A DNA stretch of 64,000 nt from Marinibacterium profundimaris (GTDB lineage: Bacteria; Pseudomonadota; Alphaproteobacteria; Rhodobacterales; Rhodobacteraceae). The stretch's first letter is position 1; each line of letters opens with the position of its first letter. Both the position numbers and the translations under genes were made by a program. Positions 7,464 to 52,894 of this stretch are shown in pieces. The notes beneath the pieces were generated by a model that was given only the letters and a program-made list of their open reading frames with translations, searched no databases and was not told the DNA's origin. Location of the stretch: contig NZ_AQQR01000004.1 of assembly GCF_002210095.1 (NCBI RefSeq), positions 310,001 to 374,000 of the forward strand, in the 5' to 3' direction.

Positions 7464-7522
7464 TCGCCCGGCCAGCGCCCGTCGCCCGCAGGGCCGATCT
7501 GCTCCCGCGGCCAACGCAACGG

Positions 7523-7551
7523 TTGCATTCCGCCGCCGGGATCCCTAGATA
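7523..7551 (+). promoter_or_regulatory. Sigma-70-type promoter of ffs
   Basis: TTGCAT (7523-7528), a 17-bp spacer and TAGATA (7546-7551). The first base of the mature SRP RNA helix (7559) lies 8 nt after the -10 box, where transcription would be expected to begin. Confidence 0.75.
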
Positions 7552-7558
7552 ACCCATC

Positions 7559-7652
7559 GAGAGGTTGGCGCGGGCGAGCGCCTCGCCAACCCGGTCAGGT
7601 CCGGAAGGAAGCAGCCGTAACGAGCCCCGCTTGGGTCGTTGTCCAGCCTCTC
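7559..7652 (+). ncRNA. ffs: Signal recognition particle RNA (4.5S-type, small SRP RNA)
   Basis: The RNA scaffold of the signal recognition particle, which binds Ffh and targets membrane and secreted proteins to the translocon. The near-universal apical region is present: GGTCAGGTCCGGAAGGAAGC followed by AGCCGTAACGAG. The ends GAGAGGTTGG (7559-7568) and CCAGCCTCTC (7643-7652) pair to close the rod, giving about 94 nt. A well-placed promoter precedes it. Location beside dnaX is the usual alphaproteobacterial arrangement, although here an oppositely oriented ankyrin gene lies between them. Confidence 0.95.
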
Positions 7653-7863
7653 ACCTTTCCCCCCGCTTGGCATGCCCGATCATCGCTTTGATATCGGGGC
7701 ATCTGCCGGGGGGCCTTTGCCGAATACTGCCGCCGCCGCCAGCGCGATGTCCCACGCGTGGGACACGGGTCGCCCTGCTTGAAATCAACGGGTTACAGCG
7801 GCGCATTTACCATTGGTTCACGATTTCGCCCATGCAAAAGGCCCCGCCTTCGCCACCCCGCGC

Positions 7864-7922
7864 CGCGGCCAGCGCGCGTCTCGCGGGGTGGGTGGGCGGG
7901 AGCGGGACGCGCGCTGGTCGCG
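7864..7922 (+). other. G-quadruplex-loop hairpin element, copy 1
   Basis: Arms 7869-7880 (CCAGCGCGCGTC) and 7906-7917 (GACGCGCGCTGG) pair perfectly, and pairing continues outward to 7864/7922 with one G-U. They enclose a 25-nt loop (7881-7905) made of a CGC/GCG closing pair set around GGGGTGGGTGGGCGGGA, four G-tracts with one-base linkers. The same loop (24/25 bases) recurs at 44612-44636 with a different stem. It lies in the convergent gap between ffs and the ankyrin gene. The rest of that gap shows no gene. Confidence 0.7.
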
Positions 7923-7943
7923 CCCCGCCACGGGCGCCTCCGG

Positions 7944-9476
7944 TCAGGCGGCGGGGCTCTCCACCACCTGGCCCGGATGGCGTTCGGCCCAGTCGGCGAG
8001 GAAGGCCATCATCGCCGCCTCGCCCTGAATCGACAGCGCCCCGCGCGGCAGGGCCACGCCGTGGCGCAACGCCTGCTCCATGCAGTCGATGTGATCGCGC
8101 GCCGCGCGCTGCGGGGCGTTCATCGACCCGTGCAGGATCGTCTCGAACAGGGTTCCGCCAAAGCCGTTCACATGGCCCAGGTCCGGACCCTGCGACAGGA
8201 AGAAGGCAAAAACCTCCCCCAACCCCTCCCAGCCTGACAGCATCAGCGGCGTCAGCCCCATCTCGTCCGTGGCATTGGTGTCGAACCCCATCTCCACCAG
8301 CCGGCGCATGTGCGGCAGGGCCCCGGGCCTCCCCGCCATGCGGCAGAGCAGCCGGCGCGCCTCGTCCGAGAGCAGCGCCATGTCGATCCAGTCGCGGGAG
8401 CCTTGCGTGCCGTCGGCGGCGCGCGCCAGCTGCGCCTCGGCCGCGGTCAGGGACGTGTCGCCGCCCGCCCGGGCGATGGCCCCGGCCACTGGCCCGTTGC
8501 CATGCATCCGCGCCAGCGCATAGGCCGTGTGGCCGAAGAACCGCGCCGAGAGATCGGCACCATGCGCGATCAACAGCTCTGCCGTCGCGCCCGAACACAT
8601 CCGCCGTGCCGCCTGGTGCAGCGCCCCAGCCACCAGCGCGGGTTCGCCCGAGGGATGACCAGCCGGCAGCTCGGCCGGGTCGGCCCCGGCGGCCAGCAGC
8701 AGCGCCACCGCCTCGCGGTCGTCGAAATCCAGCGCCCGCAGCAGCGCATTGGTGCCCTCTGGCCGCGCGCCATGGGCCAGCAGCAGGCGCAGCCCGCCGC
8801 GATGGCCCAGTTCGGTCGCGTGGTAGAGCGACTCGTTGTCATTGGGGTCGGCGCCGTGATCCAGCAGCCATTCGCCCAGCGCCATGTTGTTGCCGTGGCC
8901 GATCGCCCCGTAGAGCACCGAGAGCCGGTGATCGCTGCCGTCGCCCGCCGGGATGCTGTCGTCCACATCCGCGCCGGCGGCCAGAAGCGCCTCGGCCACG
9001 GCGAGCATGTCGGCCTCTTCCCCGCCGCAGAGATGGTAGCGCGAGAAGGCCAGATCCGCGATCGGCCGGCGCCCCGCCACCGCGCGGGTCGCGGCATCCG
9101 GATCGCGCGACAGGCGGCGGCGCACCTCGGCCACGTCATAGGTGGCGCAGGCCAGCGCCAGCGTGTCACGCCCCAGCGCGGGATCTTCGGAGAGCAGCGC
9201 CTCGATCGCCCAGCGGCGGCCCTGTTCCAGGGCCTGGCCCAGCTGGCGGGCGCGCGCGGCCCGGTCGAGCGCGCGGGCCTCTTCGGCGAATTTCAACCTG
9301 GGCCAGCTGTCGTGCCCGGCCTCGCGGGCGATCACGTGCAGCGCGTCGGCATGGCGCAGCGCGGTCGCGCCGGGGAGGACGGCATGGACGCGGGCCCGCG
9401 CCTCGGGCGCGCCGGCGTCGAAGGATTTGCGCAGCGCCTTGGCGGCACGACGCAGGTATTGCGTGGAATCAGTCAT
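7944..9476 (-). CDS. Ankyrin-repeat protein
   Basis: A 510-residue protein without signal peptide or membrane helices, probably cytoplasmic. Ankyrin-type repeats run through most of its length, recognisable as LLAAGADVDD, LLDHGADPNDNES, LLLAHGARPEG, LLLAAGADPAEL, LLIAHGADLSARF and a later MGFDTNATDEMGLTPLM. The first ~100 residues are helical, with the pattern LHVIAREAGHDSWPRLKF seen at the N-terminus of many bacterial ankyrin proteins. Ankyrin repeats bind proteins; no partner or enzyme domain is visible. It is divergent from dnaX (279 bp between starts, no gene in the gap) and convergent with ffs. Confidence 0.85.
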   Translation of the reverse strand: MTDSTQYLRRAAKALRKSFDAGAPEARARVHAVLPGATALRHADALHVIAREAGHDSWPRLKFAEEARALDRAARARQLGQALEQGRRWAIEALLSEDPALGRDTLALACATYDVAEVRRRLSRDPDAATRAVAGRRPIADLAFSRYHLCGGEEADMLAVAEALLAAGADVDDSIPAGDGSDHRLSVLYGAIGHGNNMALGEWLLDHGADPNDNESLYHATELGHRGGLRLLLAHGARPEGTNALLRALDFDDREAVALLLAAGADPAELPAGHPSGEPALVAGALHQAARRMCSGATAELLIAHGADLSARFFGHTAYALARMHGNGPVAGAIARAGGDTSLTAAEAQLARAADGTQGSRDWIDMALLSDEARRLLCRMAGRPGALPHMRRLVEMGFDTNATDEMGLTPLMLSGWEGLGEVFAFFLSQGPDLGHVNGFGGTLFETILHGSMNAPQRAARDHIDCMEQALRHGVALPRGALSIQGEAAMMAFLADWAERHPGQVVESPAA

Positions 9477-44302: not shown

Positions 44303-44545
44303 ATGACCCATACGCAGAATTTCACGCCCGCAGAAGACCTCGACAAGGCGCTGGCCGCCATCATCCGCACCCACGGGCTGGCCCGTGTGCTGCTGGCCGC
44401 CATCGGTGCGCGACTGAACGCGCCACCTGGGCGGACGCCGCGGCGGCGGCGGCCCGAGCCGAAGGGGCTGAGCAACCATTTGCGGCGTGACATCGGACTG
44501 CCCCCGGTGCGCACGCCGCCCAGCCATTTCGCCCGCTTTCGCTGA
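44303..44545 (+). CDS. DUF1127-like small protein
   Basis: An 80-residue basic protein. The N-terminal half is helical (AEDLDKALAAIIRTHGLARV LL region), and the C-terminal half has a basic stretch (RTPRRRRPEPKG) and LSNHLRRDIGLPP, the hallmark LS.HL.RDIGL of DUF1127. Small DUF1127 proteins in Rhodobacter have been tied to stress and sRNA biology; one such protein (CcaF1) binds RNA. Directly downstream is the second G-quadruplex hairpin. The start at 44303 has no strong ribosome-binding site. Confidence 0.68.
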   Translation: MTHTQNFTPAEDLDKALAAIIRTHGLARVLLAAIGARLNAPPGRTPRRRRPEPKGLSNHLRRDIGLPPVRTPPSHFARFR

Positions 44546-44596
44546 CCCTGGGCCCGGCCGGTCACCCCGGCCGGGCCTCTCCATGCCACCGCCCGC

Positions 44597-44651
44597 GGAT
44601 CGCCCCCGGAGACGCGGGGTGGGTGGGCGGGAGCGGCTCCGGGGGCGATCC
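44597..44651 (+). other. G-quadruplex-loop hairpin element, copy 2
   Basis: Arms 44599-44611 (ATCGCCCCCGGAG) and 44637-44649 (CTCCGGGGGCGAT) are exact complements, with two more G-C pairs outside. The 25-nt loop (44612-44636) matches copy 1 at 7881-7905 in 24 of 25 bases, including CGC/GCG around GGGGTGGGTGGGCGGGA. Only the stem sequence differs, and it is again fully paired. It lies 53 bp after the DUF1127-like gene, before ttcA. Confidence 0.7.
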
Positions 44652-44731: not shown

Positions 44732-45613
44732 ATGTTCGACACCCCCGACGATATCCATCCGCTGTTTGCCGGCGCGCCCTCCTCGACGGAGTTCAAGAAG
44801 CTGCGCAAGCGCATCGTCCGCCAGACCCGCGAGGCGATCGAGCAATACGGCATGATCGAACGCGGCGCCAAATGGCTGGTCTGCCTCTCGGGGGGCAAGG
44901 ACAGCTATACCCTGCTGGCCGCCCTGCATGAACTGCAATGGCGCGGTCTGCTGCCGGTCGAGATCCTGGCCTGCAACCTCGACCAGGGCCAGCCCGGCTT
45001 CCCGGCGACGGTCCTGCCCGAATTCCTGGAAAAGATGCAGGTCCCGCACCGGATCGAATACCAGGACACCTATTCCGTCGTCATGGACAAGATCCCGCAG
45101 GGCCGCACCTTCTGCGCGCTCTGCTCGCGCCTGCGCCGCGGCAATCTCTACCGCATCGCGCGGGAAGAGGGCTGCTCCGCCGTGGTGCTGGGCCATCATC
45201 GCGACGATATCCTCGAGACCTTCTTCATGAACCTCTTCCACGGCGGGCGCCTCGCGACCATGCCGCCGAAGCTGCTGAACGAGGAAGGCGACCTTTTCGT
45301 CTATCGCCCGCTGGCCTTCGTGGCCGAGGCCGATTGCGAGAAATTCGCGCGCGCGATGGACTACCCGATCATCCCCTGCGACCTCTGCGGCAGCCAGGAC
45401 GGGCTGCAGCGCCAGCAGGTCAAGCAGATCCTCGACGGATGGGAAAAGAACAGCCCCGGCCGCCGCCAGGTGATGTTCCGCTCGCTGATGAATGCACGGC
45501 CCTCGCATCTGCTGGATCCGAAGCTCTTCGATTTCATGGGGTTAAGCCGCGACCTTTCGCCACAACCCACGCAGGATTCCGAAAATTCGGTGCAAGTTCC
45601 GCGCTTGCGTTAA
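44732..45613 (+). CDS. ttcA: tRNA 2-thiocytidine(32) synthetase TtcA
   Basis: Thiolates cytidine 32 of certain tRNAs using ATP and an iron-sulfur cluster. The 293-residue protein has the PP-loop SGGKDS (residues 53-58), the cluster motif CALC (Cys128, Cys131) and a second CDLC (Cys216, Cys219), with [20 protein letters not shown] between. These Cys-x-x-Cys pairs are the TtcA signature. Possibly significant here: tRNA-Arg(ACG) is among the known C32-thiolated tRNAs in E. coli. Confidence 0.94.
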
Positions 45614-52779: not shown

Positions 52780-52894
52780 GCGCCGCGTGCCTGCCCGACG
52801 CGGGGGTCGCCATTATCGCGCCATTGGTCCGAGCGACAATGGCGACGGGCGGGAGGTTAGGGCAGGCACGGCCCGCCCCATCCGCAAACGCAAA

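Follow-up and report, generated by a model that had tools for sequence, protein, structure and literature searches.

A dispersed family of G-quadruplex-capped hairpins in Rhodobacterales, mostly located past stop codons and oriented with GC skew in four of five genomes

Two hairpins in Marinibacterium profundimaris carry nearly the same loop of four G-tracts on stems that look unrelated. This raises the questions whether such hairpins form a structured family, which strand folds, and what the fold might do at the sites where it occurs. The window that we analyzed is a 64-kb stretch belonging to contig C34 of a genome of 6.15 Mb in 60 contigs. The relevant features, in window coordinates, are:

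7559-7655, plus strand: ffs, the small SRP RNA (Rfam RF00169, 56.6 bits), upstream of copy 1
7864-7922, plus strand (the G-loop strand): copy 1 hairpin, arms 7864-7884 and 7902-7922, loop GGGGTGGGTGGGCGGGA at 7885-7901
7944-9476, minus strand: ankyrin-repeat gene (own gene finder; Pfam Ank_2, E 2.6e-15), converging on copy 1 with its stop codon 21 nt away
44303-44545, plus strand: small ORF (own gene finder), upstream of copy 2, described as a DUF1127-like gene by the first-pass annotation
44597-44651, plus strand (the G-loop strand): copy 2 hairpin, arms 44597-44615 and 44633-44651, loop GGGGTGGGTGGGCGGGA at 44616-44632
44732-45613, plus strand: PP-loop ATPase gene, TtcA-like by eye (own gene finder; Pfam PF01171, E 7.5e-14), downstream of copy 2
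52786-52870, plus strand: third copy, interrupted, with stem CGTGCCTGCCC...GGGCAGGCACG and a palindrome of about 40 nt inserted between its G-tracts

A quadruplex loop on covarying stems

Both hairpins described in the first-pass annotation were recovered in place. The near-identity claimed for their loops is real: the 17-nt core GGGGTGGGTGGGCGGGA is the same in copies 1 and 2 and occurs exactly twice within the window, and the 25-nt stretch differs by one base. Their stems had been called perfect and unrelated, which is correct for the lower stems, but a mismatch precedes the CGC/GCG collar in each, T·G in copy 1 and A·G in copy 2. With the covariance model described below, copy 1 was matched at C34:317868-317918 (E 1.8e-8) and copy 2 at C34:354599-354649 (E 1.1e-8), both copies being among the training sequences of the model. 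The third copy had gone unnoticed, and its intact orthologue stands on the same stem in the same-genus genome G121 (C1:4526945-4526995). The palindromic insertion inside its loop (GTCGCCATT...AATGGCGAC, about 40 nt, window 52806-52846) is possibly another mobile hairpin. Rfam covariance models at the gathering score found only tRNA and the small SRP RNA in the window and nothing for the quadruplex hairpin, which agrees with the earlier remark that no named family has this loop. The small ORF at 44303-44545 had no Pfam match at E 0.001, and by eye a further hairpin lies 3' of it at about 44551-44577.

Other repeats occur in the same surroundings. A second dispersed repeat of about 70 nt (window 7748-7818, starting TGTCCCACGCGTGGGACA), the palindrome of which is present once in the window, is the source of most of the 42 matches in G120 and 41 matches in G121 to window positions 7500-9000. 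Hairpins with GTGTCCCACGCGTGGGACAC near gene ends, at about 58.07 kb of contig C12 (L135) and 132.75 kb of C34 (L179), are perhaps related to this repeat. Long palindromes with GTAGGGTGGG ends, at about 163.0 and 412.2 kb of C34 and 612.2 kb of C12, are unrelated and look like an ordinary palindromic repeat.

Across the genome, about 40 hairpins are capped by the same G-quadruplex loop. Exact matches to the pattern GGGTGGGTGGGCGGG number 15, and 31 sites fit it if one mismatch is allowed; the reversed pattern gives 6. Nearly all of the 33 distinct loop sites are hairpins, a few of them bulged. The element consists of a stem of about 19 bp topped by a three-tetrad G-quadruplex motif that has one-base linkers; a G·A or G-C pair and a C-G collar close the loop. 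At the 33 loop sites, pair position 1 is G·A in 25 and position 2 is C-G in 28, and Watson-Crick pairs occupy stem positions 8-17 in 27-31 of the sites. Stem mismatches concentrate at positions 4-7 from the loop, i.e., in the stretch that leads from the collar to the lower stem.

From the 33 sites, 28 copies were picked for clean ends and aligned. In this alignment 92.2% of the pair cells pair, compared to 50.2% after shuffling, and the covariation score is 0.979, compared to 0.213 for shuffled copies and 0.14-0.19 for slid partners. The shuffled and slid controls thus bear out the proposal of the first-pass annotation, a structured family in which the quadruplex loop is fixed and the stems covary. 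That the quadruplex hairpins keep their pairing while the stem sequence is free is well supported. The covariance model gave 41 matches at E<0.01 in the own genome, 28 of which had trained it, corresponding to about one element per 150 kb (41 matches in 6.15 Mb).

The loop contains four tracts of at least three G with short linkers, the sequence pattern that defines a G-quadruplex. In 183 distinct sites the three linkers read TTC (114), TCC (37), CTT (8), TTT (7), TCT (6) or one of several rarer forms, and all three are pyrimidines in 176, counts for which the G-tracts were preset by the search expression. For this reason we also scanned for any strong-stem hairpin with a 13-19-nt loop. This wider scan, in which most tiles were chosen around matches, gave 80 exact quadruplex loops, 9 near loops and 49 other loops; eight of the near loops lack one or two G and one has a longer linker, and none was listed in the contiguous own contigs C12 and C34. 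Quadruplexes with one-base pyrimidine linkers are very stable.

The element is nearly restricted to Rhodobacterales. Among 84,980 species, the loop 19-mer CGGGGTGGGTGGGCGGGAG was found in 102 stretches, 95 of them from Rhodobacterales (by title) and 7 from outsiders. Ungapped, at least 11 of 14 positions pair in 82 of the 95 and in one of the 7; with one bulge allowed, the stem score is at least 8 in 93 of the 95 and in one of the 7, and the sole outsider with a hairpin is a Clostridia MAG. Within the family, 32 of 120 genomes, the own one counted, have matches at E<=0.01, with 39 in the own genome, 37 in G018, 41 in G037, 25 in G070, 15 in G096 and 1-8 in the remaining 27 carriers. The same-genus genomes G120 and G121 gave 44 and 29 matches at E<=0.001. 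Among 289 genomes drawn from the class, the own genome alone matched (E<=1e-4, stricter filters), and the three other family members listed in this draw had 0 matches. The search of related genomes with a covariance model, which the first-pass annotation had suggested, thus returned many further matches with varied but paired stems.

Gene ends, replication direction and the folded strand

All gene contexts are based on a home-made gene finder, not on annotation. Reading the G strand 5' to 3', the genes before and after the hairpin lie on strands +- at 71 of the 183 sites, -- at 66, ++ at 23 and -+ at 11, with other arrangements at 12; the downstream gene is on the opposite strand at 138. The typical place is just past the stop codon of this opposite-strand gene, at a median distance of 10 nt (+-) or 11 nt (--). 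Between convergent genes, the hairpin is closer to the C-strand gene in 59 cases and to the G-strand gene in 10, with 2 ties, and for tandem pairs the relevant stop codon is within 30 nt in 49 of 66 on the C strand versus 3 of 23 on the G strand. Copy 1, with its convergent minus-strand gene, shows the usual arrangement, and copy 2, between two plus-strand genes, the rarer kind. That the hairpins follow a plus-strand gene, as had been pointed out earlier, is incidental: what copy 1 adjoins, at 21 nt, is the stop codon of its convergent minus-strand gene.

The orientation of the hairpins is tied to replication, as judged by GC skew, in four of five genomes, and is mixed in G037. GC skew was used as a proxy for fork direction, and origins were inferred; in the own genome, dnaA (C12:99.6 kb) and the skew minimum are about 220 kb apart, and in G121, where dnaA stands at the chromosome start, the distance to the skew switch is 160-390 kb. 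In the four genomes, the G-loop is on the negative-skew strand, i.e., the leading-strand template, at 64 of 72 sites (P 6e-12), which divide into 14/15 for the own genome, 24/25 for G070, 16/19 for G121 and 10/13 for G018. Sites already counted under named loci, mostly from G018, were dropped from this set as duplicates, and sites in related genomes are not independent.

The same polarity is visible along individual contigs. On own contig C12, matches are on the plus strand at 131, 154 and 261 kb and on the minus strand at 392, 424, 615 and 709 kb, and the cumulative GC-skew minimum is near 320 kb. On C34, 8 of 8 matches (E<0.01) are on the plus strand and skew is negative in 13 of 14 40-kb windows. 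For the smaller own contigs with at least two matches, scored by direction alone without skew, the majority direction comprises 4/4 matches in C4, 2/2 in each of C7, C23 and C45, 5/6 in C3, 2/3 in C56 and 1/2 in C18. The G121 chromosome (5.56 Mb) has 17 minus-strand matches at 0.30-2.15 Mb, where 8 of 8 tiles are skew-positive, ten plus-strand matches and one minus-strand match at 2.97-4.85 Mb, where 7 of 8 tiles are negative, and one minus-strand match at 5.41 Mb in a positive region. Each G070 contig has a single direction in 35 of 35 matches listed (of 36), and 34 of the 38 matches listed for G018 (of 40) follow the contig majority, the skew of its contig C1 being weak.

The direction of the adjacent gene does not cause this polarity, since the sites between two G-strand genes agree with the skew rule in 8 of 8 cases. 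A general strand bias of quadruplex motifs was also rejected: on C12 and C34, other quadruplex motifs lean the opposite way, with 61 on the negative-skew and 108 on the positive-skew strand, versus 14 and 1 for the hairpins.

The 8 exceptions among the 72 sites include 4 where skew is below 0.012. One exception, L023/L265, is conserved between two species. Two quadruplex hairpins of opposite direction, 84 nt apart (L012, 2001 minus and 2085 plus), are kept as a pair in a related genome (L097, 4323 minus and 4432 plus), so one of the two must violate the polarity rule. In G037, direction is uniform in only 3 of 18 contigs with at least two matches listed. When a near-identical subfamily and matches of lengths other than 51 nt are removed post hoc, uniformity rises to 8 of 9 contigs with at least two matches, again by direction alone without skew. 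One reading is that young copies lie either way and that their orientation is sorted afterwards.

Comparison of orthologous sites shows how the elements change. Stems differ while pairing is kept for copy 1 in G120 (alignment by eye) and at C12:708533, L003, L012 and L015, and at L002/L118 the hairpin is kept on unrelated stems. Copies are also gained and lost between species: the copy 1 site in G121 (alignment by eye) has an ordinary hairpin on a related stem from which the quadruplex loop is absent, and the aligned place of copy 2 in G121 has no quadruplex loop. At the orthologous convergent site L016 (own genome) and L056 (SP126), the stem is similar and the loop is flipped relative to the genes; local skew is -0.059 and +0.071, respectively, with the same gene orientation (4- and 8-kb stretches). 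It seems that the loop was re-oriented after the segment switched replichore, an independent gain being a possible alternative. A second flipped pair, own C34:237425 and L203 of G070, has unrelated stems and near-zero skew in both genomes and is uninformative.

A mismatch that reads G·T on the G strand reads A·C on the C strand, so the ratio of the two indicates the strand whose fold is maintained. Using a filter that is strand-symmetric (177 of 206 loop sites, stem positions 2-16), we counted 87 G·T and 11 A·C, compared to 198:156 after shuffling; without G037 the ratio was 85:11. Split by gene context, with another filter and G·T counted as paired, it was 23:2 (--), 41:6 (+-), 10:1 (++) and 7:1 (-+). 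The control set comprised 339 ordinary hairpins from intergenic regions of the own contigs, which gave 41:55 when oriented by skew; the 222 of these beside a stop codon gave 43:19 when oriented by gene sense, as expected for RNA hairpins. These control ratios show that the test detects RNA sense and has no replication-linked bias. The kept fold is that of the G strand, antisense to the usual adjacent gene; the ratio would look the same for RNA and for DNA of this strand. The assumption in the first-pass annotation that the G strand is the folded one is backed by the wobble bias. Its interpretation as selection on an RNA structure of the upstream plus-strand gene stands in part: the structured family and the G-strand fold are found, but most copies adjoin an opposite-strand stop codon, in four of five genomes orientation tracks replication and not the direction of genes, and folded DNA also fits.

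Possible functions and rival explanations

Our preferred explanation, which remains tentative, is a putative directional boundary, in which the G strand, folded either in RNA or in template DNA, would halt head-on polymerases where leading-strand genes end. The G strand would be the strand read by polymerases that move head-on to the replication fork. In G-strand RNA, the hairpin and quadruplex would fold just before RNA polymerase enters the 3' end of a leading-strand gene, and the folded RNA would stop or shed the polymerase. The outcome would be that leading-strand genes and the fork are fenced off from head-on transcription. In the DNA variant, the same strand would serve as leading-strand template and as template of the adjacent gene. 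Orientation could be enforced because a quadruplex hairpin would be costly on the lagging-strand template, which is single-stranded during copying and is the strand on which DnaB travels.

The RNA form needs no extrusion and fits convergent sites; the DNA form on the leading-strand template is nearly as likely as the RNA barrier. Several observations count against a boundary. The two flanking genes both lie on the C strand at 66 of the 183 sites (--), where RNA of the G strand would be antisense and an RNA barrier would need antisense transcription. A 3'-end barrier makes little sense at the 11 sites between divergent genes. The polarity exceptions and the mixed orientation in G037 do not fit either, and on the C strand 36-45% of sites have T as the first base past the stem, which hints that the element is used in that direction. 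Pairing can also be maintained without selection via template-switch correction, though G·T would not be favoured that way.

Somewhat unlikely, but with several observations in its favor, is a DNA-level element, in which DNA of the G strand, the template for both the leading strand and transcription, folds and acts as a replication pause or landmark or as a roadblock to RNA polymerase. Replication polarity independent of gene context argues for it, and the wobble bias fits DNA as well, G·T being the better tolerated mismatch in DNA too. The all-pyrimidine linkers of 176 out of 183 sites are of the kind linked to very stable quadruplexes. On the other hand, extrusion of a cruciform with a 19-bp GC-rich stem is slow, replication alone leaves the tight stop-codon spacing unexplained, and orientation in G037 is mixed.

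Unlikely, in our view, is a selfish or neutral REP-like repeat, which a mobiliser would spread into gene ends either way and of which the replication-tolerated orientation would survive. REP/BIME repeats with RAYT transposases are short intergenic palindromes near gene 3' ends, with dozens of copies and an uneven distribution between species, and in these respects the quadruplex hairpins, with copy numbers from 0 to dozens between genera, resemble them. In G037, which has at least 40 copies, all 40 matches scored against one copy show 90-100% identity, stems included, and occur in both orientations, and the more varied copies there look polar. Among 20 G037 stretches (L281-L300), 12 carry another, variable hairpin directly 5' of the element, with at least 5 bp of perfect stem, and 2 more have an imperfect one; the near-identical copies sit as if inserted behind terminators. 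As a general feature, a second adjoining hairpin was rejected, since outside G037 it occurs at 3 of 183 sites (5') and 7 of 183 (3'), with 5 and 1 after shuffling. In G018 (Pseudoroseicyclus), 12 of 45 arm pairs are at least 79% alike and stem motifs are held in common. The near-identical G037 copies and the shared motifs in Pseudoroseicyclus indicate that the element can multiply.

In the own genome, by contrast, only 3 of 528 pairs of stem arms reach 79% identity, i.e., the arms are unrelated, and recent transposition was rejected there. A repeat that carries its stem along, as the first-pass annotation expected of transposition, does occur in G037, where copies are near-identical together with their stems. 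Hairpins with rebuilt stems are kept at orthologous sites, exact loops outnumber near loops by 80 to 9, and a REP-like repeat leaves the one-strand wobble bias unexplained. The Y1 transposase domain (PF01797) was found in 12 of 120 family genomes, with none listed for the own genome or G018; the high-copy genomes G037, G070 and G096 are not among the 12, and the low-copy carriers G064, G097 and G098 are. Mobilisation by Y1/RAYT is thus not supported in the high-copy genomes tested. Unlike REP/BIME repeats, the element combines a fixed loop with a free stem and is polar in four of five genomes. The conserved palindrome sequence that marks REPs is replaced by a conserved loop on covarying stems, except in the G037 subfamily, the 40 near-identical copies of which would fit the REP pattern in this respect.

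It is improbable that the hairpins serve the adjacent C-strand gene as ordinary 3'-end terminators or mRNA-stabilising hairpins, the loop of which would be C-rich in the RNA. As with intrinsic terminators, a GC-rich hairpin is found directly past stop codons (median 10-11 nt), some T follows the stem on the C strand, and at the copy 1 site in G121 an ordinary hairpin stands on a related stem. The mismatches, however, would be A·C in the RNA of such a terminator, against which the count is 87 to 11, the kept fold being on the antisense G strand; ordinary hairpins do show the sense-strand G·U bias (43:19 in the positive control). As a rule, there is no U-tract after the hairpin on either strand in the four gene contexts: TTT within 8 nt occurs on the C strand in 6/66 (--), 6/71 (+-), 2/23 (++) and 1/11 (-+), and on the G strand in 1/66, 1/71, 1/23 and 0/11. 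The wobble test and the missing U-tract count against this candidate, which also leaves unexplained that orientation tracks replication. In the available text of PMC6060812, inverted repeats of E. coli are described as enriched just past stop codons.

Chance GC-rich composition has a negligible probability, for although these are high-GC genomes in which isolated one-copy matches occur, it is contradicted by the shuffled and slid controls, by stem scores of at least 8 in 93 of 95 Rhodobacterales versus 1 of 7 outsiders, and by the own genome alone matching among the 289 drawn from the class.

Relation to known elements and significance

Replication-polar DNA motifs such as KOPS are oriented by replichore and consist of short words on the leading strand, which is G-rich. 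The quadruplex hairpin resembles them in that its orientation appears to track the replichore; judged by skew and with inferred origins, it would switch at origin and terminus in the own genome, G121, G070 and mostly G018, but G037 is mixed. It differs in being a structure, and in that its G-tracts occupy the opposite strand: the G-rich word of KOPS/AIMS is on the leading strand, and 64 of 72 sites have the G-loop on the strand with negative skew. The Cuckoo RNAs and CcsR of Rhodobacter, which are linked to DUF1127 genes, also have a fixed loop motif in related bacteria, but their hairpin loops are of the CCUCCUCC type and that of the quadruplex hairpin is GGGYGGGYGGGYGGG; Rfam gave no match to them in the window.

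Reportedly, Kaplan in 2016 described an E. coli switch between G-quadruplex, hairpin and duplex, which, going by the title, also unites a quadruplex and a hairpin in one conserved bacterial sequence. A G4 upstream of nasT in Paracoccus denitrificans (PMC5123632) is likewise a quadruplex in a related bacterium; the available text of that paper describes a single promoter site with longer linkers and mentions no hairpin, unlike the dispersed elements found here. No description of the element was found in the open-licence literature, including the available text of PMC6539912, PMC5424462, PMC6486626, PMC6200779, PMC5801747 and PMC11975287; since only open-licence papers were covered, this silence is weak evidence of absence.

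The element departs from REPs, from intrinsic terminators and from KOPS-type motifs in at least one defining property each. We place it among the repeated extragenic hairpins, with a fair chance that it forms a class of its own. Possible, though doubtful, is a stronger form of the boundary explanation, in which Rhodobacterales would use a one-way fence that is structural and not sequence-based: a quadruplex on a freely evolving stem, sorted by the fork and re-set when a segment changes replichore, would stop head-on transcription where leading-strand genes end and would represent a new class of signal.

The hairpins provide a defined quadruplex element that is present in dozens of copies in several genomes and is tied to replication direction. 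Their natural series of stems and loops may be used for studies of quadruplex-duplex junctions. If the tie to replication direction is true, the roles of quadruplexes in bacteria and the limits that chromosomes set on head-on transcription would become testable in harmless bacteria.
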